NCBI RefSeq assembly: GCF_029227915.1
Contig: NC_079875.1
Span: 27,962,001 to 28,026,000 of the forward strand
Length of the DNA: 64,000 nucleotides
From: Hydractinia symbiolongicarpus
Lineage: Eukaryota; Cnidaria; Hydrozoa; Anthoathecata; Hydractiniidae
Direction of reading: 5' to 3'
The notes below the pieces were generated by a model. It did no database searches. It was not told the origin of the DNA and saw only the letters and a program-made list of their open reading frames with translations. Position numbers and translations under genes: made by a program. Shown piece by piece: positions 16,417 to 29,280 of the stretch (positions are counted from its first letter, which is position 1; each line of letters begins with the position of its first letter).

Positions 16417-16574
16417 CAATAAATTTGGTAGCTGCAATGCTTTCAATGGCTTAAGTGTGACGATCGTGCCATTACTGCGGTGGATTCATCGCAAATTACA
16501 ATTGCTCAGCTTACATACTGTTCTTTAGTAGAAGTTCTTTTCTGCAACAAAGTGAATCGGTGAAAAAAATTTTC

Positions 16575-16700
16575 CTAGCGGTTGCAATTTACCCCGACTG
16601 ACCATTGATTGGTCAACCCACCGAGAAAGTGGAGTGTTTTCCCACAAGAAGTAGGGCCTGTGAAAATAGCCGTATTAGGTTCTTTAACAATATCCAGCAT
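16575..16700 (-). pseudogene. Truncated A32-like packaging ATPase (N-terminal Walker A fragment)
   Basis: Too short for most ORF callers. From ATG at 16700 the minus strand encodes 41 residues with AIFTGPTSCGKT, a Walker A (P-loop) motif 12 residues from the start, preceded by MLDIVKEPNT. In Polinton, adintovirus and related packaging ATPases the P-loop lies this close to the N-terminus. After GKT-LHFL the similarity ends and a stop follows at 16575, so the Walker B and remaining domain are gone. Its start lies 46 bp downstream of the HNH frame's stop, with a perfect 16-bp palindrome between. The assignment rests on the short motif plus context. Confidence 0.5.
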
Positions 16701-16712
16701 TTATTCTTCATG

Positions 16713-16728
16713 TATACCACGTGGTATA
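16713..16728. promoter_or_regulatory. Perfect palindrome between HNH and ATPase frames
   Basis: TATACCACGTGGTATA, 16 bp, perfectly self-complementary with a CACGTG core. It lies 12 bp upstream of the ATPase ATG and 18 bp after the HNH stop. A related but spaced dyad sits just upstream of the HNH start (17416-17443). Both contain GGTATACA on the coding strand, which suggests a shared promoter or transcript-processing signal; that is inference. Confidence 0.45.
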
Positions 16729-16746
16729 TATGAAACTTGTAGGTGC

Positions 16747-17411
16747 TTATTCTGTAATTATTCGATTACCCTTTGATATATTTTCACTTGCCCACATTGG
16801 TTGACTATTGGTGTAGTGCAACCGTCTCGCTACATCATCAAGCGACGGAGCAACACCATTTTTCTTATATTGTAGGGAATTTTATGTTCAGTATGCCAAT
16901 CTCCATAATTGTCCCAATTAATACCTTCAGTGAACTGAACTTCGATATGATCCCTCAGTATAGCCATATTGCACCCAAGGTACTCTTGAGATCTCAGGTC
17001 TTTGCTCCTCTGTAGGGTATGGCTGACCTGACTGCGTACAACATGGGCGAGATGGCCAGGGGGATCATGATTTTTACAGGTGGATCTTATCCTACCACAT
17101 GGGCATATTTTGCTGCCTCCACAATCTTTACATTTAGATCTTATCTTGTTATGTGGGCATATACCTCTACCTCCACAATCTTTACATATGGATTTTATCC
17201 TACTATGTTCGATGCATATTTGATTACCTCCGCAATCCTTACATTGATATCTTATCCTACCATGTTCAATGCACCTATTTCGTTCCCTTGACGCCTTCAT
17301 GCCGTCTAGGCATTTGATACATTGTTTTGTCCGCTGCCCATTACGCTTGTTGATCTTGAAATTGCCTAATGTAAAAGAGCGATAGCATTTATTGCATTTC
17401 TTGGTCCCCAT
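16747..17411 (-). pseudogene. Zinc-cluster protein with C-terminal HNH endonuclease domain (one frameshift)
   Basis: Residues 1-35 carry CNKCYRSF and CIKC, a zinc-ribbon-like pair. Residues 48-118 hold four consecutive repeats of the C-EHGRIR-CKDCGG type (CIEHGRIR, CIEHSRIK, CPHNKIR, CPCGRIR with CKDCGG between). The C-terminal part has the HNH signature: YLGCN, FTEGINWDNYGDWHTEHKIP. A one-base loss in an A run near 16862 shifts the frame. The next frame supplies RRLHYTNSQPMWASENIS and a stop at 16747, the usual end of this HNH type. Similar Cys-rich plus HNH proteins occur in large DNA viruses and phages and cut DNA, often as homing nucleases. The start is the ATG 4 bp after a strong dyad. 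Confidence 0.65.
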
Positions 17412-17415
17412 ATTG

Positions 17416-17443
17416 TTTGTGTATACCGCCTGATATACACAAA
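17416..17443. promoter_or_regulatory. 10-bp-arm inverted repeat immediately upstream of the HNH start
   Basis: TTTGTGTATA and TATACACAAA flank an 8-base spacer. The dyad sits 4 bp upstream of the HNH ATG and 20 bp after the stop of the 80-residue frame. It could be a promoter operator or an RNA hairpin ending the upstream transcript. It shares GGTATACA with the palindrome at 16713-16728. Confidence 0.45.
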
Positions 17444-17463
17444 TTTTTCGCTGGACTATTATT

Positions 17464-17706
17464 CTATTTTGGAGGCATCATGGAACGCTTATACCAGCCT
17501 TGTTTTATTGCGTAATCGTCAAATAAGATCGTACCAGTCATATATCCAGCGAGCTTAAGCCCATCCTCCAGATCCATCTTCGCACCTGGTCGAGAAACGC
17601 CTAATGCTTTTTTGGCACCCAGTGCCAAGACGATTGTATATGAAACTAGTCTGACAGACTCCCATAGACTATCAACAACTTCCTTCTGATATTCTTTGCC
17701 GCTCAT
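17464..17706 (-). CDS. 80-residue hypothetical protein of the virus-like cluster
   Basis: Intact frame from ATG 17706 to TAG 17464. It has an amphipathic N-terminus (KEYQKEVVDSLWESVR), one hydrophobic segment around LVSYTIVLALGAKKAL, and a second weaker one around LAGYMTGTILFDDYA. The C-terminus is basic. I recognise no family. Its ATG is 12 bp after the stop of the 113-residue frame, as in tightly packed viral operon-like clusters. A virion or membrane-associated role is only a guess from neighbours. Confidence 0.45.
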   Translation of the reverse strand: MSGKEYQKEVVDSLWESVRLVSYTIVLALGAKKALGVSRPGAKMDLEDGLKLAGYMTGTILFDDYAIKQGWYKRSMMPPK

Positions 17707-17718
17707 TTATATTATACA

Positions 17719-18060
17719 TCACCGCATCTTAAAAATATCAATATCGTGGTTCGTGGTAGGTTTTTGATGAACCGCTGGTGGAGGCTGCTGAGTATTCGCG
17801 GATTTTTTACGAGTAAAATATATGACACTTCCGATACAGGCGATCGCAAGTAGGCCTCCACCAATGTATATTCCACTGCCTGACTGTACAAAACTCACTC
17901 CAGAAGAGTTTTTGACTGGAGGTTGTACAGCACCCTCTTGTTTAAGTTCTTCCTTCCTTTTCTTCATCAGTGCGGCTAATTTGTGGCCTTGGGCTACTCT
18001 ACCAGGATGCTTCACTGGTTTTGTTAAAACTCTTTCTTCTTGTGGTTGAACTTCGCTCAT
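17719..18060 (-). CDS. 113-residue single-pass membrane protein of the virus-like cluster
   Basis: Intact frame with a basic N-terminal half (KHPGRVAQGHKLAALMKKRK), one clear transmembrane segment at about residues 62-83 (GIYIGGGLLAIACIGSVIYF followed by TRKK), and a Pro/Gln-rich tail. The Lys/Arg after the membrane segment predicts the C-terminus on the inner side. No homologue comes to mind. It is the most upstream readable frame of the cluster. Composition and intactness contrast with the decayed retroelements around it. Confidence 0.5.
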   Translation of the reverse strand: MSEVQPQEERVLTKPVKHPGRVAQGHKLAALMKKRKEELKQEGAVQPPVKNSSGVSFVQSGSGIYIGGGLLAIACIGSVIYFTRKKSANTQQPPPAVHQKPTTNHDIDIFKMR

Positions 18061-18129
18061 TTTTTATAAGACGCGAGAATTATAAAATTACTTCCCTAAT
18101 CACTAGGGACCTGTCTTGCATCTGTTCTC

Positions 18130-18890
18130 AAATCTGCCAAAATCAGTGGACATCTGTTACTAAGAGATTCTGTCGACCCTTGTGTGTCTAAGTGCGTACC
18201 AGATTTAAAAGCTGGAAATTGGAAAGTTAGTGAGGCAGTTCTTTCGGCGGATAGGCAGCTCAATTTCAAAAGGATTTTATGTTTGCATCAGACTGGTCGA
18301 GCTGGCTTAGGGCTCTTAGACCACAAAAATATACCACCAAAAGGCACTTATGCTTACCAAAAGCTTGTTTCCAATATCATTGAAGAAAATGAAGAAGATA
18401 TTTACCATGCCAGAGCTGTACAGTTGCATTTGCAAGGCAATTGGACGAAATGGTGCTCTTATATGAAAAATGATTTATCTTGGAGAAAAATTCTTTTACT
18501 GCCACAATGTCTAACTTCCTTTTGTATAGAGGCAACCTACGACACCCTTCCCTCTCCAACCAATCTTGTGAGATAGGGAATTGAGAAAGACAAAAGTTGC
18601 ATTCTGTGCAACAAACCATCCTCAAATGTCTCTCACATATTGGATGCCTGTAGGACCTCCCTTACGCAGGGTAGATACCGTCATGACTCGGTTTTAGTAG
18701 TTTTGGTTAAGGCATTAAAAGAGTTTTTGGTATTATATGAACCTCTTAGGGTTTCCAAGTGCAACAAAATTAATTTCATTCCGGCCGGTCAATCATCATC
18801 TAAGAAGAGGCATACAAAGTGTCCAGGCCTTCTTCACCTTGCTTTCGATTGCAAAATACTGTCAGATTTAAATTACGTTTTAGTTGTTCC
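18130..18890 (+). pseudogene. C-terminal part of a reverse-transcriptase-type element with zinc cluster
   Basis: In one frame, interrupted by a TAG at 18574, the strand encodes AVQLHLQGNWTKWCSY, DLSWRKILLLPQCLTSFC, EATYDTLPSPTNLVR-stop-GI, CILCNKPSSNVSHILDACR and GRYRHDSVLVVLVKALKEFL. The CxLC...H...C cluster after a WTxW-DLSW block is a pattern I remember from the C-termini of cnidarian and fish reverse-transcriptase elements. The stop replaces what is usually Trp. The catalytic core upstream is absent: the left edge abuts the virus-like cluster, and the right edge is cut by the TTTA tract. Confidence 0.5.
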
Positions 18891-18897
18891 ACCATAC

Positions 18898-19179
<282 letters not shown>

Positions 19180-21845
19180 CATCAATATTTACCCAGGATA
19201 TACATTTCAGAATAAATTTCTGCTTTTCAAATGTGTCCTGCTAAAATTAAAATCAAATACTCTGCATTATATACAATTAAATATAAAATCGCCGATGTTC
19301 TAAAATCCAATAAAATGAAAAGGAATAGGCAAAACAAAAAGAAAAACGCTAAGCACATAGATGAAATGGTGAAAATACACTAAAGATAAGATTATAGGTG
19401 TCCATGAGTTAAGCGCTCAAATGGGAGATAATTGGTATAAATGGGTGAGGCAACAAAGCTAGTATAATATATGAAATATTGAAAATGCTATACTAAGAGA
19501 CGAAAGATGAAACATGCCATATCACAAATGCTTCCTTCTGCTAAATGTCGAATGAATAATCGGCAAAAAACATTTTAATTCAAAACCGCGTATGTCATAA
19601 GCTTGCAGTATCTAAAAACATCAAGTAGAAAGGGTGAGAAACAGAGGTGAAAACATATAAATAAGGAAGACTAGACAAGGTTTAAGAGCTTCATATTGTG
19701 TTAGGGTCCAAAGTCCAAATAAAGTGTGTAAGTAGGCCAAACGATTAAAAAATATGGTTATCCAATTTATTTTTAAATTTCCTATAACTAGGCTCCCTTC
19801 GTATATCTATTGGTAAAGAATTATATATACTGGCACCCATATAGTAAAAACCATTTCTTGCCATATCCAAACGTACTGCTGGTAACTTTAGCGAATAACA
19901 ATTGTTTCGAGTCAGTCTTTGATGGTTTAGCAGCTGAAAGTGGTTCCAATAATTTGAGCATGTTTTACGATCAATACATTTTCTGACAATATTACAAGCA
20001 TTTCGTTGAATTTTGTCGTAAATGGGTTGTAAACTGTTGTTGTTAGTTACTACTCTGGCACGTCTATCCAAGGACTGCAGTTTGTTCAACTGGGTGTTAT
20101 TCAGGTTCAAATTGATGATACTATTGAATGTAATGATTGGAGTTATCATTGTTTCGTAAATCTTTTTAGCAGTTGTATCGTCAACTTCGGATCGTAGTCT
20201 CGTCAGTAAACGGAGTCTTCCAGATGCTTTTTTGTATGTAGAGTCGAAGTTGTTATTTAGAGACAACTTAGGATCAATAGTTGATCCCAAATACTTGTAG
20301 CTTTTCGTCTCATTAATCTCCACAAAATTACTTGACAATGATATTTTTCCTTTAGCACTTTTCAACATTTTACTCGTCCCGAATATCATCCATTCTGTTT
20401 TCCCTTTGTTTAAATTAATAACAAGATCATTTTCTCGTAGATATGTCTCAACAGCAAGAAGTTCTTCATTTAATAGATTTTCAAGGACGAGAAAGCTTTC
20501 ACTTGAGAAGTAGATAACAGTGTCATCTGCAAATTTAATAACGCTAGCTTTAAGTAGGACATTATCAAAGTCATTAAAGAAAATTAAAAATAATAATGGC
20601 CCGAGTATGGACCCTTGCGGAACACCACAATTCACTGGTTGTGGGTCAGATTTGATGTTATTTATCACTACTTCCTGCTTTCTCCCAAACAAATAATCAG
20701 AAAACCATTCTAGTTCGTTACCAAGTATACCATAGGCTGATAATTTCTCAATTAAAATACTATGGCCAACCGTGTCGAAGGCTTTTGACAAGTCCATGAA
20801 AACTGCAGCAACGTATTTTTTCTTATCAACTTCCTTTCTAATGTCATCTAACAATAGATTAGCAGCCAAATCTGTTGATCTGAGACGACGATACCCAAAT
20901 TGATACTAAGATAGTAAGTTGTTCTTCTCAAGATATTCGATAACTTGGTCATATACTGCCCTTTCGAGAATTTTTGAGATGACCGGCAATATAGATATAG
21001 GTCTATAGTTATTGTTATCGTCAGTCGAACCTTTTTTAAAAATTGGCTTAACTACAGCATGTTTCCATTCTCCAGGTATCATAGCCGTTTGTATCGATAA
21101 GTTTATTATGTGACAAAGTGGAGCAGCGATTTGACTGGAACAATCTTTGAGCAGTCCAGGTGGAAGATCGTCTACACCTGTGGCTTTACTTCTCTTTAAT
21201 TTTTTCAGTTCTTTTTCGATCGATATTTTCGATACATATTTGAAGGTAAATATGGAAGTAGTTCGTAATTTCGACCATTGTGGTTGTTTCCATACAAAAT
21301 CTTTTAAGTGAATCGATTTCTCCTTGATTTGAGCTGCTATTGAAGAGAAAAACAAACATAGTGATTCAACTTTCGATTTGGTTGCTGTAGCATCACTGAC
21401 GACGTTTCGTGGTTTAGTTGGCATTATTTTCTTTATCGTATCCCAAAATTTCTTTGGATTATGACAATTCTGTGCTAGTAAGTTTTTACTAAATTGGGAC
21501 TTCGATTCTCGTATTTTACGTGTACATAAGTTTCGAACTTTGCAGTAAGCCTTCCAGTCGCTTGGCTTTTTCGATTTTCGCGCTTTTCGTAAAGCCTCTC
21601 TTTCGTTCATCAATTTATATATCTCATTGTTAAGCCACGGACAAAATTGTCCTTTGACTGTCTTCCCGATGATAGGGGCATGTTTGTTGAACAATGCGGT
21701 GAGAGTAGTTTTGAAATATGACCATGCGATGTTCACATCGTTCATTCCATAAAGTTCACCCCAGTCGTGTTTACTAATTTCGTCAACCATTTGCTCACTA
21801 GAGTACTTGGCATACTTGGCATAAAAACACCTCCGTAGACTGACC
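19180..21845 (-). mobile_element. 5'-truncated non-LTR retrotransposon (LINE-A)
   Basis: Antisense LINE consisting of about 560 bp of 3' untranslated sequence, a reverse-transcriptase ORF (19745-21790) and no endonuclease domain. The absence of the upstream endonuclease indicates the usual 5' truncation of target-primed insertion. The 5' edge lies near 21845, where THAP-domain coding sequence of the neighbouring transposon begins. The 3' edge runs into the TTTA tract. No target-site duplication could be defined, because the sequences on the two sides belong to different elements. Confidence 0.7.
19745..21790 (-). pseudogene. Non-LTR reverse transcriptase with one internal stop
   Basis: One continuous frame of about 680 codons with a single TAG at 20906-20908. 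The N-terminal part shows the region before the palm (CPWLNNEIYKLMNEREAL, NPKKFWDTIKKIMP, KSKATGVDDLPPGLLKDCS, WKHAVVKPIFKKG, YRPISILPVISKILE). After the stop follow YQFGYRRLRST, FMDLSKAFDTV (motif A, Asp), NCGVPQGSILGPLLFLIFFND (motif B), KFADDTVIYFSS (motif C, FADD) and NKGKTEWMIFG (motif D). The C-terminal thumb is present up to the natural stop at 19745. The order and spacing fit jockey/CR1-type reverse transcriptases. The stop (probably from CAG) makes this copy inactive unless read through. Confidence 0.9.
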
Positions 21846-21856
21846 CCTTTACGGGT

Positions 21857-24336
21857 AGTATTTTATCACATTCCTAGTGCGAAAAAAGATAAAGAGCTTC
21901 GGAATAAATGGCTACACAATATAAAAAGAAGTGGTACCTTGCCGAAAGACTCTGGGTTTTATATTTGTTCTCATCATTTTGAACCAGAGTGCTTCGAAAG
22001 AGATTTACAAGTAAGTCTTTTCGTTACCTATGTTTCACCAAACAGCCAAACATTTGTCTTTCTCGTATTTAGAAAAATTCAACACAGTTTCATTTATTAC
22101 AGCCATTTCCAAAACAAAACCATGTCAAAAAAAATCATTATATTTTCTTCGCATGTTCGCATTTTCTTTCCCCCAGTGCTGAATGTTTTTTTAACATCGA
22201 AAAATCCTTCAAGAACATGTGCTTTCGTAAGACGGGGATAATGGAAGTCTATTATTTTTAAATTTCTAGGCTGAACTAATGGGTTCTCCACCGCGGAAGA
22301 AATTAAAAGATGGTGCTGTTCCGACCTTGTTTAATTTTACAAAACAGCCTGAGAAACGTAAAAGAACAGAAAAAAGAATCGAAGACCGTCAGAAACGACA
22401 GGTAAAATAAGTGTCTATATGTTTTTGCAATACAGAGGGTTTGTTTTAAAATGAAATTTTGTTTGGTTATCTTCTAGCTAATTGATTCTATGCTGGAAAC
22501 AGAAGCAAGTGATACTACACAACCTGAAAATAAACAAGAAATGGGAACCCAGACTGAAACAAATGGCGTTGATAAAGCTGTCAATGCTGTCAAGTGCACT
22601 AAAACACGCGGCGTTCAATGTCAATCATCACTGTATGTGAGTCATGAAAAGGTTGGAATCCAAGTAGCTCCAATAAAAGTGAAGATTCCAAAACCAAAAA
22701 AAAAGAAGGACAAATGTTGTAATACCGATTTTTCTTTCTCGCCCGATGTAGAAGTATCGATGTCTGTCATAGAAGAATTTTCAGAATACGAGGAAGAAGC
22801 AATTAGTAATAATGAGAAAAGTCAAGACGAATCGTTCAATTTGGAAAATCTGTCAGATAGTGAGAATGATAACGACTCCGATGCGGACATTCCCGACCTA
22901 AACGGCACGTGTTTTATCGTTTTTTGGTCTTGTCTTCTACCTCTGCTACGATTTTGTTTCACCTGTTTTAAGCCAGCTGAAGTGAATAAAATTGCAGTTA
23001 AAGGGACTCAACTAATCGTACATTTGCTGTGCAGTGACCATCATGCTCACCAATGGTCATTGCAACCACTGGTGAGTAAGCGACCGTGGGGAAATTTATT
23101 GCTTTCCTCAGCCATTTTAATTTCCGGTAACACATACCATCGCGTTAAAGAAATGATGCAAATCGCAAAAATACGTTTTTTGTCCAAAACCACCTTTTAC
23201 GAAATACAAAAAAAGTACATATTCCAAGCGATTCACAAAATATATTCCACTCATCGAGAATTACGATTTCAGTCTTACCTAGAAAGCAATGAGGCACTAG
23301 ACTTAGCAGGCGATGGGAGGTGTGATTCACCAGGTTACAGTGCAAAGTGCGGAACTTACACGTTACTTAATTCAAAATCAAATGAAATAGTTGATTTCAT
23401 GTAGTTCATGTCGGCCAAGTTGGGAATTCGTCGCGTATGGAAAAACAAGGATTGATTGTTGTTCTTAATCGTTTGTTAGAAAATCAACTGTCAATTGAAG
23501 GCATTGCAACTGACAGGCACGTTCAAATCCGGAAGTACATGCGAGAAGAACGCAAGGATATTAAGCACCATTTTGACGTATGGCATATGGGGAAAAACAT
23601 TAAAAGAAAGTTGGTCAAATGTGCCAAGAAAACAACTGCTAAAGATTTACTTCTTTGGGTAAAAGCTGTCATAAATCATTTCTGGTGGTGTTGCGCCTCT
23701 GGTAATGGTAACGTGGTAGAGTTACGAGAGAAATGGCTGAGTTTGTTGTGTCATGTAAAGAACAAACACAAATGGGAAAGCAACAAAATATATCACAAAT
23801 GTGAACACTCTAAACTCTCTAAATTAGAACAGCGATCAAAAAAATGGTTGATGGAAGGAACGCCTGCTTACAAAGCCCTTGAATCTGTAGTTCGGGCTAA
23901 GTCTTTGTTGCGTGATTTGAAGTACTTCGTCGAGTTCAAACACACAGGAAGTTTGGAAGTTTACCACTCACTCTACAACAAATATTGCCCAAAGAGGTTA
24001 CACTTTAGCTTTGCAGGAATGATTGCTAGGTCACAACTCGCCGTTCTTGACTTTAATGCTGGAGCTGGCTCCTCCCACGCACAAACATCGTCTGGAGAGC
24101 ATCGCTATAAGCAACAATACTCGAGGATTACAGACTCCTGGGGTGTCAAAAAAGTTTACACGGAAAAGCAAAGGTCGTACGTAGAGGATATTGTAAGTGA
24201 AGTTAAGTATTTGGTTACAACTAAAGAAGGGTACGCAGCTCCCAAAGTCGCCGATGTTCCAAATTATATAGCGCCAAGAGAGAAACCAGATAAAAAAGAA
24301 GCCATTGAAAATATGAAAACAAGGTTTACATTGTAA
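21857..24336 (+). pseudogene. THAP-domain transposase, Kolobok type (three visible exons, one frameshift, 5' part missing)
   Basis: Exon to 22010 encodes the second half of a THAP zinc finger (FYHIPSAKK, KWLHNIKR, ICSHHFEPECF) and ends at a GTAAGT donor. Exon 22270-22401 (acceptor TTTCTAG, donor GTAAAA) has RKKLKDGAVPTLF, the linker usual after THAP domains. Exon 22478-24336 (acceptor CTTCTAG) carries an acidic Ser/Glu region, then the transposase core with LDLAGDGRCDSPGYSAK near 23295 and ATDRHVQIRKYM and FDVWHMGKNIKRK near 23510-23600. All junctions are phase 0. A one-base loss near 23400 breaks the frame between IVDF and VHVGQVG. The first THAP Cys pair is absent, lost upstream at the LINE-A junction. 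THAP plus this core is typical of Kolobok elements as I recall; P-element relatives are the alternative. Confidence 0.7.
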
Positions 24337-24396
24337 TAATTTTTTTTTTATTAATATTCAATCCCCTCTTTAGCTCTAAGGTTGAAGTTGGTTCTT

Positions 24397-25420
24397 TTAT
24401 TCAGAATCGGAATCCGTGTTTTCATACAGTCGTTTGTCGTCGGATTTGCTCTCCGTGAATGGGATATAAATACCATTTTCAGATGGATATTTATTATGAA
24501 TTGCCCATAAAGCACACGACGGTATAATTTTTCGCACACCTTTTCCCAATCTGTTATGTATCCACCACGTGTACTGTTTATAACCGGCAAAACGTAGTGA
24601 ACTAAAAAGAAATTGTGATATAACACAAGTTTGTTCCCAAGTCCTTTCTTGCCCTTAACCCTTAAAATAAAATGCAATAAAAAAACGTACCAATTATCCG
24701 TGTGCATTGCATCGCCCCTTAAATTATTTAGAACAGAAAGTGCAGTGGTTAGTACTGGTTTACATAGACAAACCATCCCAAAAGTTTCGGCTTCAGTTAT
24801 ACATTGTTTTCCTAAAAAGAAAATTACCCCCGTCTCGAGTTTTGATTTTTGAGCGCACGTTCTCATTCGATTTGTAAAGCTGAATAAAATAAAACAACCA
24901 CCGTTGTGTTTTTTTTGTGAGATTGTTTTGGCAGTAGCGAATGATAACGAATAAAATATATGCGAAGGAGAGTTAAATGTTTTTGAGAAAAAACTTATGT
25001 TAGGCAAAATATTTTGAAAGAAGTTTTGCGTCAGTTGTCGTGTTCGTAGGCATATTTTTTTTTATCAACGCGAAGACCAATATTTAAAGGGAATATGTAT
25101 AGTTTTGTTATGGTTTTAAACACGAAAAAGAAAATTATGCTTGGCTAAATTTTTTGTTTATTTTACCTTCAAAATGATTGTCAGGAATTTCATTTGTATC
25201 CCTGCAACACAAGCTTTCACTGTACGACTCCATCGCTCTACAGTGACCACCGCATTGGCACCAGTTATTATTGCCGATCCTTGAAACTTCATCTTCTTCC
25301 TCATCACTCTCGGAACTACACGTTCCTAATTTCAAAATTGAAGGGTCTGAGAGTGGATAAATCAGGTATGTCATCGTTTTCATCTTCGTTAGAACTTGAA
25401 TCGCTTCGAATTTGATCCAT
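24397..25420 (-). pseudogene. P2X7 C-terminal (ballast)-domain gene, three exons, one frameshift
   Basis: Exons 25420-25167, 24811-24691 and 24601-24397 join with consistent phase (donors GTAAAA and GTACGT, acceptors TTTTTAG). The product starts with an acidic Ser/Asp/Glu-rich region. Next comes NWCQCGGHCRAM and SLCCRDTNEIP (zinc-binding Cys cluster). Exon 2 gives CITEAETFGMVCLCKPVL. Exon 3 gives FAGYKQYTWWIHNRLGKGVR, KIIPSCALWAIHNKYP, then an acidic tail. This order matches the cytoplasmic ballast domain of vertebrate P2X7 receptors, without any channel part. A single-base-scale shift near 25330 breaks exon 1. It converges on the transposase gene with 60 bp between stops, inside the same element. 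Its biochemical role in a transposon is unknown; DNA or nucleotide binding are guesses. Confidence 0.75.
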
Positions 25421-26045
25421 TGCTTACAAAACTAACACTGTATTTTCAAAGAAGTAATTTGTTACAGATTTGTAAAGAAATATAGCAGGAAAGAAGTAGA
25501 TTCTTCTAGCAAATTGTGTAGCCTGTGTTGTGACTCTTTCACGCGATGCAATGTTTTGAACTATAAAACGTCATACTTGAGTTAGAACCCAGCTTTTTTT
25601 TTCTGACACGCTTTTTCAAAAACGGAGCATTTTCAAGAAGTTTGTGTCAACATTAGAGACATTTCCGATGTATTATAAAATAAAATAAATTTATTTTTTT
25701 GACCGAACTTCCCCTTTAAATTTCATCACTTTCAGGATCAAACAATAGGCCTAGTCTTGCCACCAAATATTTACCTTCAAATGGACTTTTTTTCATGTCA
25801 GAGGGGCCAACATGATAGTCTGAATTCTCATCTGAATCCAACCGAGACAGACGCTAACGTTTCTCTCTGAAGGATTTTTTTTATGTTTGTCTTTAAAACT
25901 GAGTATATTTTGTGTGAAAAAATAAATAAAACAAGTATCACAGTGGTGGACTATACCTGTCAAAGAAGTTATATTCTTGGATGTTAATTCCGTCATGTGG
26001 TCACATTAGTTTTGATACCAGCACCGTTACAACTATTATCCCAGA

Positions 26046-28518
26046 CTAACTTTGATGATTCATATCATCAACAGTTCCGATATTGCCTCGGATATCAATT
26101 CTTTGGCATGTCAGTACATGTTGTGGGGTTTGAATTTCACCACAGACGCAATTTGGGCTATCAACTAATCCAATTCTATGCATGAAGTTAGCATATCTTC
26201 CGTAGCCTGAGCGGATACGATTTAGCAACACCCAATGTCGGCGCTCGAGGTCGTGACCATTAGGCTTATCCGACGGATCTGGTATGAATTGTTTGAGTCG
26301 AAAGTTCGATTCTCGAAACAGTTGCTCGAAACAGTTTTTGGCATGTTGAGCTTCAGTCTCCAGTCGGTAGAATAGTCTCTAAGGGTATCAGTGTCTTGTG
26401 ACAGAACTCTTTCGATTTCTGGAAAATCTTTCTTGCAAGTCATTAAAGCTATGTCATCTGCATAGATGTATTTCATGCTAGTGGTCGGAGGAATATCGTA
26501 CGTGTAGATATTGAATAATAGTGGTGCAAGAACAGATCCTTGCGGTACACCGTTGATCAAGGTTCTGATTCTTGACTTCTTCCCACCAATTTGAACATAG
26601 AATCGCCGTTGCGAGATCATGGACATGATCACACGTACAATGTTTTTACTTGGCAGTGTGTTGAGAAGTTTAAAAGTTAAGCCACGGTGCCAAACAGTGT
26701 CATACGCGGCCGATAGATCCACAAGTACAACTCCAGCCTTGAGCTTTTTGTTAAAGCAGCATTCAATGTCTTCAGTCAGGCGTACAACTTGGTCTTGAGA
26801 TGATCGACCTGGGCGGAAACCGGCTTGCTCCTCAGGTAAGAAAGACTCAGCAATCGGTTGAATGCGATTGTAGATCAGACGTTCGTAAAGTTTGTAAGGG
26901 ACGCAAAGTAGACTAACAGGTCTGTGGCTTGAGTACGGCCACAACTTTCGCTAGCTTCCATATCTTTGGAACTTTCGTTGTCTTTAAGCAGATGTTGAAG
27001 AATTCTCGAAGCCATTTTGTACAAGACTCGTCTATGTGGAGGAAGAACTCTGGGTGTAAGTTGTCGACACCTGGTGCTTTTCCGGCTTTGAGTGTTTTAA
27101 TTGCGGTCGTAACTTCTTCTAGTGTAAAATCACAACACACATTCAGATCTGCCGACGGAGCATTCCATGCCTCTTTCAGTTGGCGATTTACTTCCCTTGT
27201 GAATGGTTTGTTCGGGTTTTTGAACTTGCCGTTGCTTAGTAAGCATGGTGTAACTGCATTGGGACTCATTGTATTGGTATTAGGAGAAACATTCTTACGA
27301 CCAGTGAGTTTGTTTAATGTTGACCAAGCTCTCCTGCTTGAACGTTTCATGTCGATGTTTTCAACAGTAGCGATCCATTGTTCTTTTCGCTTGGAGTTTA
27401 AGTGGTCAATCAAGCGATTTGATGCATGAAGCTTTTCTTCAGATGTCTGAGCTTCTTCCAACTGGGAAGAGAGATCATCACAGGTTGCGTCCCATTTCGG
27501 AATGTATTTCTTACGGAAGCCTCTCGGTATTGTCTCTTTCGCTGCCTTTAAAAGTTTCTTTTGGAATGCTGTGAAGCAAGCATTGATGTCAGGTTCAAGT
27601 GGAGGAAGATCGTCACACATGTTCGTTGTGGCTGTACGGGAACTCCTCCCAATTGGCTTTGTTAAAGTTCCAACGAGGAATCGGTGTTGTTGGAGTATAT
27701 TCGATCAGCGCAGGGTGATGTATGACCGTAGGTCGGTGCTGAGACTTCGGAAAGTTCCCAATAATGTTGTGAACCGGGTACGGTAACGGACTGTTGATGT
27801 CATGTGTGAATAACGTCAAGTCCGGCTTCGTGAAAGTATTCCATGCTGCCGAGTGAAATGTTTTTCGTTGGTTTGGGTCATAGAGTAACCTTAGGTCAAT
27901 CGTATTTGACCATTCGTGTAGAGCTTCATCGTCAGGGTTATTTCGAGCGTAACCCCAGGTTGTGTAATGGTAGTTGAAATCTCCCGAGTATATAGCTGGG
28001 TGTTCATATCGAGAAGGTGGTTCGAAAGGAGCGTTTGGTGGCTTGTAGAAATTCGTAATGGAAATTTCACCGTTTATTGAGATAGTAATCCATTCAGTCT
28101 CGCTACCGTCTCTGCTTCGTCCAATCGGAGTAGCGGGCAGATGGCTTTGAACAAGTGTGGCGATTCCATGTTTTGCGTGGTTAATAGAGTCAATGAGAGT
28201 GTAGCCGTAGATCTTTAATTTCTCGTTGCTGGTTGCATGAGTTTCTTGGAGTAAAATAACAGATATCGAATTGTCTGTGGCAATTTTCTGGATGACTTCG
28301 CATTTCGGTCTCGTAAGGCCTTCAACATTGATTTGAAGGATAGCAGTACCAGATGGTTCGTGTAGCTTTGGATTATCAGATGGACTCTGCTGTTCTGGAT
28401 TTGGCATTAGTTTCCCAGTAAAGTACCGGTACTTACAGGGTGGATCACGAGAAGGTTGCCAATACCCACCCCTAGGTTCTAGTAAAACGAAAAGAAACAA
28501 TTGGCACAATTTATACAT
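26046..28518 (-). pseudogene. LINE-B ORF: APE endonuclease plus reverse transcriptase, frameshifted
   Basis: Frame 1 (28518-27613) gives an AP-type endonuclease: ILQINVEGLTRPKCEVIQKI, VILLQETHA (catalytic Glu), YSGDFNYHYTTWG (Asp/Asn) and DLTLFT. An extra base near 27630 shifts to frame 2 (27620-26913), with the pre-palm region KAGKAPGVDNLHPEF and WKLAKVVAVLKP. A deletion near 26930 shifts again to frame 3 (26944-26222), giving SHRPVSLLCVPYKLYERL, VLVDLSAAYDTVWH (motif A), NGVPQGSVLAPLLFNIY (motif B) and YIYADDIALM (motif C, YADD). A final shift gives RIRSGYGRYANFMHRIGL and CVCGEIQTPQHVLTC, the C-terminal Cys/His tail common to this group. The 3' end lies near 26058. Confidence 0.88.
26058..28473 (-). 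mobile_element. Non-LTR retrotransposon (LINE-B) inserted in copy B
   Basis: Antisense LINE with endonuclease, reverse transcriptase and a C-terminal Cys/His tail. It lies between GATGATTCATAT (left) and AGGTTCTAGT (right), which are almost adjacent in copy A (near 11935-11955, separated there by about 6 bases). Copy A is thus an empty site. The coding region is broken at two or more places, so the copy is inactive. Its sequence differs from LINE-A, and it belongs to another clade (jockey superfamily, exact clade not determined). Confidence 0.85.
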
Positions 28519-29280
28519 GAAAAGGTGTTAAGAATTGTCAATGTTTATGGTCAACACTAAAATAAATAAATTTTCTTAATGTGAAATTACATTGTTTACG
28601 TTGGAAAAGCATGTACTTAGTTGTATTTCCACCACGTGACAAGTAGCTATTAAGTTGTTTAGCTTCTTCACCTGATGTCTTTACCTGGAGAACATGATTT
28701 GAAATCATGTTATTGACATAGCATTGTAACGTAAAAATCAAACTAAAAATTAAAAAATCTGTATGTATCTGACCTGACAAGACATCTGGTGTAGTTTCGC
28801 CAGGCATCACTGAGACTGGGAGTTTCATTTGATCGGATATAAACCGTCGTGTAAATTGAGGTTTGCCAATACCCACCCTAGGTTCTAGTGAAACGAAAAG
28901 AAACAATTGGCACAATTTATACATAAAAAAGGTGTTAGGAATTGTCAATGTTTATGGTCAAACACTAAAATAAATAAATTTTCTTAATGTGAAATTACAT
29001 TGTTTACTTTGGAAAAGCATGTACTTAGTTGTATTTCCACCACGTGACAAGTAGCTATTAAGTTGTTTAGCTTCTTCACCTGATGTCTCTACCTGAAGAA
29101 CATGATTTGAAATCATGTTATTGACATAGCATTGTAACGTAAAAATCAAACTGAAAATTAAAAAATCTGTATGTATCTGACCTGACAAGACATCTGGTGT
29201 AGTTTCGCCAGGCATCACTGAGACTGGGAGTTTCATTTGATCGGATATAAACCGTCGTGTAAATTGAGCAATAGGCAATA
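28475..29280 (+). repeat. 406-bp tandem duplication spanning the LINE-B 5' junction
   Basis: GGTTCTAGT-AAACGAAAAG starts at 28475 and again at 28881, and both units run collinearly to AAATTGAG. Between the units lies TTTGCCAATACCCACCC, the same sequence that forms the LINE-B 5' edge at 28455-28472. The duplicated block therefore contains about 20 bp of LINE-B and arose after that insertion. Copy A has one unit and no such edge. Confidence 0.8.
28958..29278 (-). CDS. Hypothetical ORF of the duplicated segment (copy B, tandem unit 2)
   Basis: 106-codon counterpart of 12028-12348 with about nine amino-acid differences. A third version at 28538-28948 lies in tandem unit 1, where it is extended at its N-terminus by joining sequence. 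No family recognised. Confidence 0.3.
   Translation of the reverse strand: MPIAQFTRRFISDQMKLPVSVMPGETTPDVLSGQIHTDFLIFSLIFTLQCYVNNMISNHVLQVETSGEEAKQLNSYLSRGGNTTKYMLFQSKQCNFTLRKFIYFSV

Follow-up and report, generated by a model that had tools for sequence, protein, structure and literature searches.

In the hydrozoan Hydractinia symbiolongicarpus, a stretch of 64,000 nucleotides of contig NC_079875.1 (hereafter, the window) carries a transposase gene beside a gene whose product resembles the cytoplasmic ballast domain of the P2X7 receptor. The question raised by this locus is whether the second gene belongs to the host or to a transposon. Judging from the sequence, it is highly probable (roughly 0.92) that an old Kolobok DNA transposon of the Kol0 lineage lies here, inactive and truncated on its left side, and that its convergent second gene is KolX (Table 1). 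Several features support this identification, namely matches to the Pfam families P2RX7_C and THAP, the AVPTLF and DVWH motifs, a TTAA-AGGGG end and the published two-protein content of the lineage. All of the computed evidence comes from one locus. As described in the accessible portions of Kojima and Bao (2022, Mob DNA 13:24, PMC9587614), Kol0-lineage Kolobok elements encode a transposase together with KolX, a protein that has the P2X7 ballast fold with seven cysteines and resembles the C-terminal part of P2X7 (human residues 476-595). The family to which the locus belongs is known, and the locus is an ordinary member of it.

The second gene is identified primarily by its similarity to the ballast domain. 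The spliced product (164 amino acids, ballast frame from 25335) matches P2RX7_C with an E-value of 2.1e-22 and 80.4 bits, the family cut-off being 23.5 bits, and no other Pfam family is matched when E-values up to 1 are allowed. Searched one at a time, exons 1 (24.8 bits) and 3 (34.7 bits) both score above this cut-off, and in the expected order, and the match is therefore independent of the chosen splicing; exon 2 (39 amino acids), searched singly, gives no Pfam match. Four distinct P2X7 sequences of solved structure are matched by the spliced product as well (8.6e-9 to 9.9e-7), and its identity to three solved ballast pieces is 34, 34 and 32%. In the HMMER alignment, all seven cysteines of chain 6u9v (477, 479, 482, 498, 499, 506 and 572), which we take to be rat P2X7, stand opposite KolX cysteines. 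The seven cysteines of a KolX are consequently present in the sequence, with the ballast fold predicted from the alignment. The P2X channel domain expected of a P2X7 receptor is absent, the product matching P2RX7_C alone. Two introns interrupt the ballast domain, before the positions of Cys506 and Leu545.

Conservation of the nucleotide-binding site is more limited. In rat P2X7, the accessible text of Rump et al. (2020, PMC7016195) lists R546, H547, R574, R578 and K583 as contacts of guanosine diphosphate (GDP), and the corresponding KolX residues are R, F, L, H and S. With only one of the five contacts retained, the protein encoded here is unlikely to bind guanine nucleotide in the manner of rat P2X7, and the loss of most listed contacts suggests that the role of KolX in the transposon needs no guanine nucleotide. 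Tyr550 and the F/Y581-P582 pair, termed strikingly conserved in the same text (PMC7016195), are retained.

The start of KolX is less well defined than its ballast domain. From ATG 25420, an acidic start reading MDQIR runs into a stop at 25316 and does not lead into the ballast frame, which is open and stop-free from ATG 25383. The upstream ATG is the more likely of the two starts, though out of frame, so that either the frame has changed in this copy or the true start is the second ATG. The first-pass annotation had described a three-exon P2X7-like gene without a channel domain; the exon order and the missing channel domain are borne out, while the acidic start does not join the ballast frame.

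The transposase gene, on the opposite strand, is recognizable in three pieces with splice-like signals. Firstly, the piece at 21843-22010 matches Pfam THAP (2.8e-10) over profile positions 18-64 of 87, so the initial part of the domain is missing; PaaX_M, the second Pfam family on this piece, is below its cut-off. No upstream THAP exon was seen, and no search able to find one was run. Together with the next exon, the THAP piece matches THAP2 (1.3e-5) and THAP1 (4.3e-4) among PDB sequences. Secondly, inspection of motifs places AVPTLF in the second exon and DVWH in the catalytic exon, which consists of overlapping open frames at 22478-23404 and 23395-24336. DVWH has the C/DxxH form that lies between the second D and the E in Kolobok transposases; the catalytic D, D and E are assigned by eye to putative positions in GDG, TDRH and LEVYHSL. 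In Kolobok transposases, a putative H2CH zinc finger is named and an AVPTIF-type box forms part of the THAP domain, according to the accessible part of PMC6004289, and both the domain and a box of this type are found here, though the first part of the domain is missing. The three-exon THAP transposase of the first-pass annotation accordingly survives in outline, with a truncated THAP domain and a broken frame; that annotation mentioned neither these defects nor the frame conflict at the start of KolX. Given this broken frame and a THAP domain reduced to half, it is very probable that this copy can no longer act as an autonomous element.

The right end of the element provides a further line of evidence. 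TTAA adjoins AGGGGAAG, giving the 5'-RR terminus of Kolobok. The accessible parts of the literature describe the T2-MITE family, linked to Kolobok, by a TTAA target and an AGGRR terminal motif, report AG ends in ten full-length Xenopus Kolobok copies (both PMC6004289), and give Kolobok an RR terminus (PMC9587614); the right end fits all three. A search of the 64 kb with the 19-base end, allowing up to 3 mismatches, returns one site, the known end itself, with 0.01 expected by chance. A 12-mer with 2 mismatches finds two sites, of which one is the known end, compared with 3.86 expected by chance. TTAA is present at the right end, and the left end was not found in the window; one terminal inverted repeat is present, the left part of the copy being missing. 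The best TTAA-anchored candidate for a left repeat in 1-21900 matches at 11 of 20 positions, a score for which no chance control was made.

Table 1. Coordinates of the Kolobok copy and its two genes within the window.
Feature	Position	Strand	Evidence or remark
Transposase THAP exon, remaining part	21855..22010, left border approximate	+	Donor GTAAGT at 22011; Pfam THAP
Transposase exon with AVPTLF box	22270..22401	+	AG acceptor, GT donor, open frame
Transposase catalytic exon with a frame break near 23395-23404	22478..24336	+	Two overlapping open frames; DVWH motif
KolX exon 3, KIIPSCALWAIHNKYP, stop 24399-24397	24397..24601	-	P2RX7_C 34.7 bits alone
KolX exon 2, KQCITEAETFG...	24691..24811	-	Splice-like sites and frame; aligned to P2X7
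KolX exon 1, WCQCG..C and CC cysteines	25167..25420	-	Splice-like site; 25168-25335 matches P2RX7_C
Right terminal inverted repeat, AGGGGAAGTTCGGTC	25701..25715	-	Partner not found in window
TTAA target site beside right end	25716..25719	.	TTAA-AGGGGAAGTTCGGTC at 25719-25701

Some observations weigh against this identification. A MAFFT alignment places six of the seven cysteines in invariant columns, and in the HMMER alignment to the P2X7 sequence u160554 the third cysteine is shifted by one residue. Neither catalytic piece (22478-23404 or 23395-24336) matches Pfam at E up to 1. The borders of the element are unproven at this locus, since a single terminal repeat was found. In addition, exon 1 of KolX can be read without a stop, so KolX alone gives no sign of decay.

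The placement of the two genes bears directly on whether the second one could be a host gene. Their two stop codons are separated by 60 bp (24337-24396), and both genes lie inward of, that is to the left of, the one identified TTAA-flanked end, as the first-pass annotation had noted. This tail-to-tail arrangement argues against a host nanor-like ballast-domain gene that came to lie beside a Kolobok fragment by chance, an explanation we regard as improbable even though no second terminal repeat was detected, the stretch occurs as a single copy in the window and the ballast frame reads open from ATG 25383, as it would in a working host gene. KolX as the second protein is moreover the published content of Kol0 elements in the accessible text of PMC9587614, and the acidic start, the more transposon-like of the two, is out of frame. 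It is highly improbable that the element is instead a piggyBac, or another transposon targeting TTAA, that encodes a KolX-like protein, as the KolX-like proteins described there lack most of the seven cysteines (PMC9587614, accessible portions) that are kept here, the transposase here matches THAP, and the end begins with AG, an RR terminus.

The Kolobok copy is flanked on both sides by long interspersed elements (LINEs). To its left, a minus-strand LINE region includes a reverse transcriptase at 19748-20905. Between this reverse transcriptase and the THAP piece, no Pfam match above cut-off is found, and the LINE may extend to the THAP junction. A search for a LINE insertion with target duplication at this junction found none, 21825-21900 and 16501-19800 sharing no word of at least 10 bases. 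To the right, the minus strand encodes reverse transcriptase and endonuclease domains (26225-28527). Also on the minus strand, an open frame of 45 amino acids (25716-25853) follows an AG site, its TAA lying inside the TTAA of the element; it could represent the final exon of a different gene, and no Pfam family matches it even when E-values up to 10 are allowed. Elsewhere in the window are a perfect (ATTT)n run of 70.5 copies (18898-19179), a 408-bp unit in two tandem copies with 97% matches (28456-29268) and a satellite array whose periods are about 126 and 243 bp; this array fills the last 21 kb (42984-64000) and contains repetitive open frames.

An intact element of this kind would move by cut and paste, its THAP domain binding the terminal repeats and its DDE domain cutting and joining at TTAA. 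The small KolX protein would adopt the same zinc-binding fold as the ballast domain of P2X7. There is perhaps an even chance that it acts as an accessory protein, held by two zinc ions, which aids the transposase complex or the survival of the element in the nucleus. An acidic DIPDL motif occurs in both proteins; the idea that it is a common docking site was rejected, since 364 of 5000 block-shuffled pairs likewise share a 5-mer. A more speculative scenario, which we consider unlikely, is that the ballast domain was first a zinc-only transposon protein and gained guanine-nucleotide binding after its capture by P2X7, in which case the two introns would mark a lineage apart from the KolX behind the single P2X7 exon 13.

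Relatives of KolX were also sought in other collections. None was confirmed in viral contigs (0 and 58 pattern matches failing tblastn in two scans), in prokaryote genome contigs (27 pattern matches failing tblastn) or in phages, and no relative of the transposase piece 23395-24333 was confirmed in viral contigs (4 pattern matches failing tblastn). The collections are viral and prokaryote by description, and these searches are therefore silent on animals.

The link between KolX and P2X7 is already known. In the accessible portions of PMC9587614, P2X7 is said to have originated when a P2X4-like gene and KolX fused, and nanor to be a likely domesticated KolX; in a full-text literature search for KolX by name, this paper alone was found. 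Searches pairing P2X7 with Kolobok, and P2X7 with transposon domestication, each returned it together with one review (PMC9319628). The main proposal of the first-pass annotation, that stand-alone P2X7-like genes and the vertebrate P2X7 tail may come from Kolobok, agrees with that account and, because Kojima and Bao derive P2X7 from KolX, had already been published. The locus is an independent sighting of the published link, and animal genes that lack a channel and are annotated as P2X7-like may be transposon genes. The locus adds one detail, two introns that divide the ballast domain, and this could help trace which KolX was captured.

Comparison with known systems places the copy as follows. 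In vertebrate P2X7, the ballast domain is coded by exon 13 alone (PMC7016195, accessible text), whereas three exons code for it here, and the channel part of the receptor is unmatched in this KolX. Stand-alone ballast (ZCD) proteins and nanor, as described in the same text, share with it a ballast domain without a channel, the retained zinc cysteines and R546, while H547 and K583 are not found; R578, conserved among invertebrates according to that description, is replaced here by H. The term 'transpos' does not occur in the main text of Rump et al. (2020, PMC7016195). The Xenopus Kolobok transposases, compared by description only (PMC6004289, accessible part), share the THAP domain with its AVPTIF-type box, the TTAA target and the AG terminus. 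Compared with the Kol0 lineage and its representative Kolobok-1_XT, as presented in the accessible portions of PMC9587614, the copy described here has been truncated and carries a broken transposase frame; it has in common with them a transposase accompanied by a KolX with the ballast fold, the TTAA target and the RR terminus.
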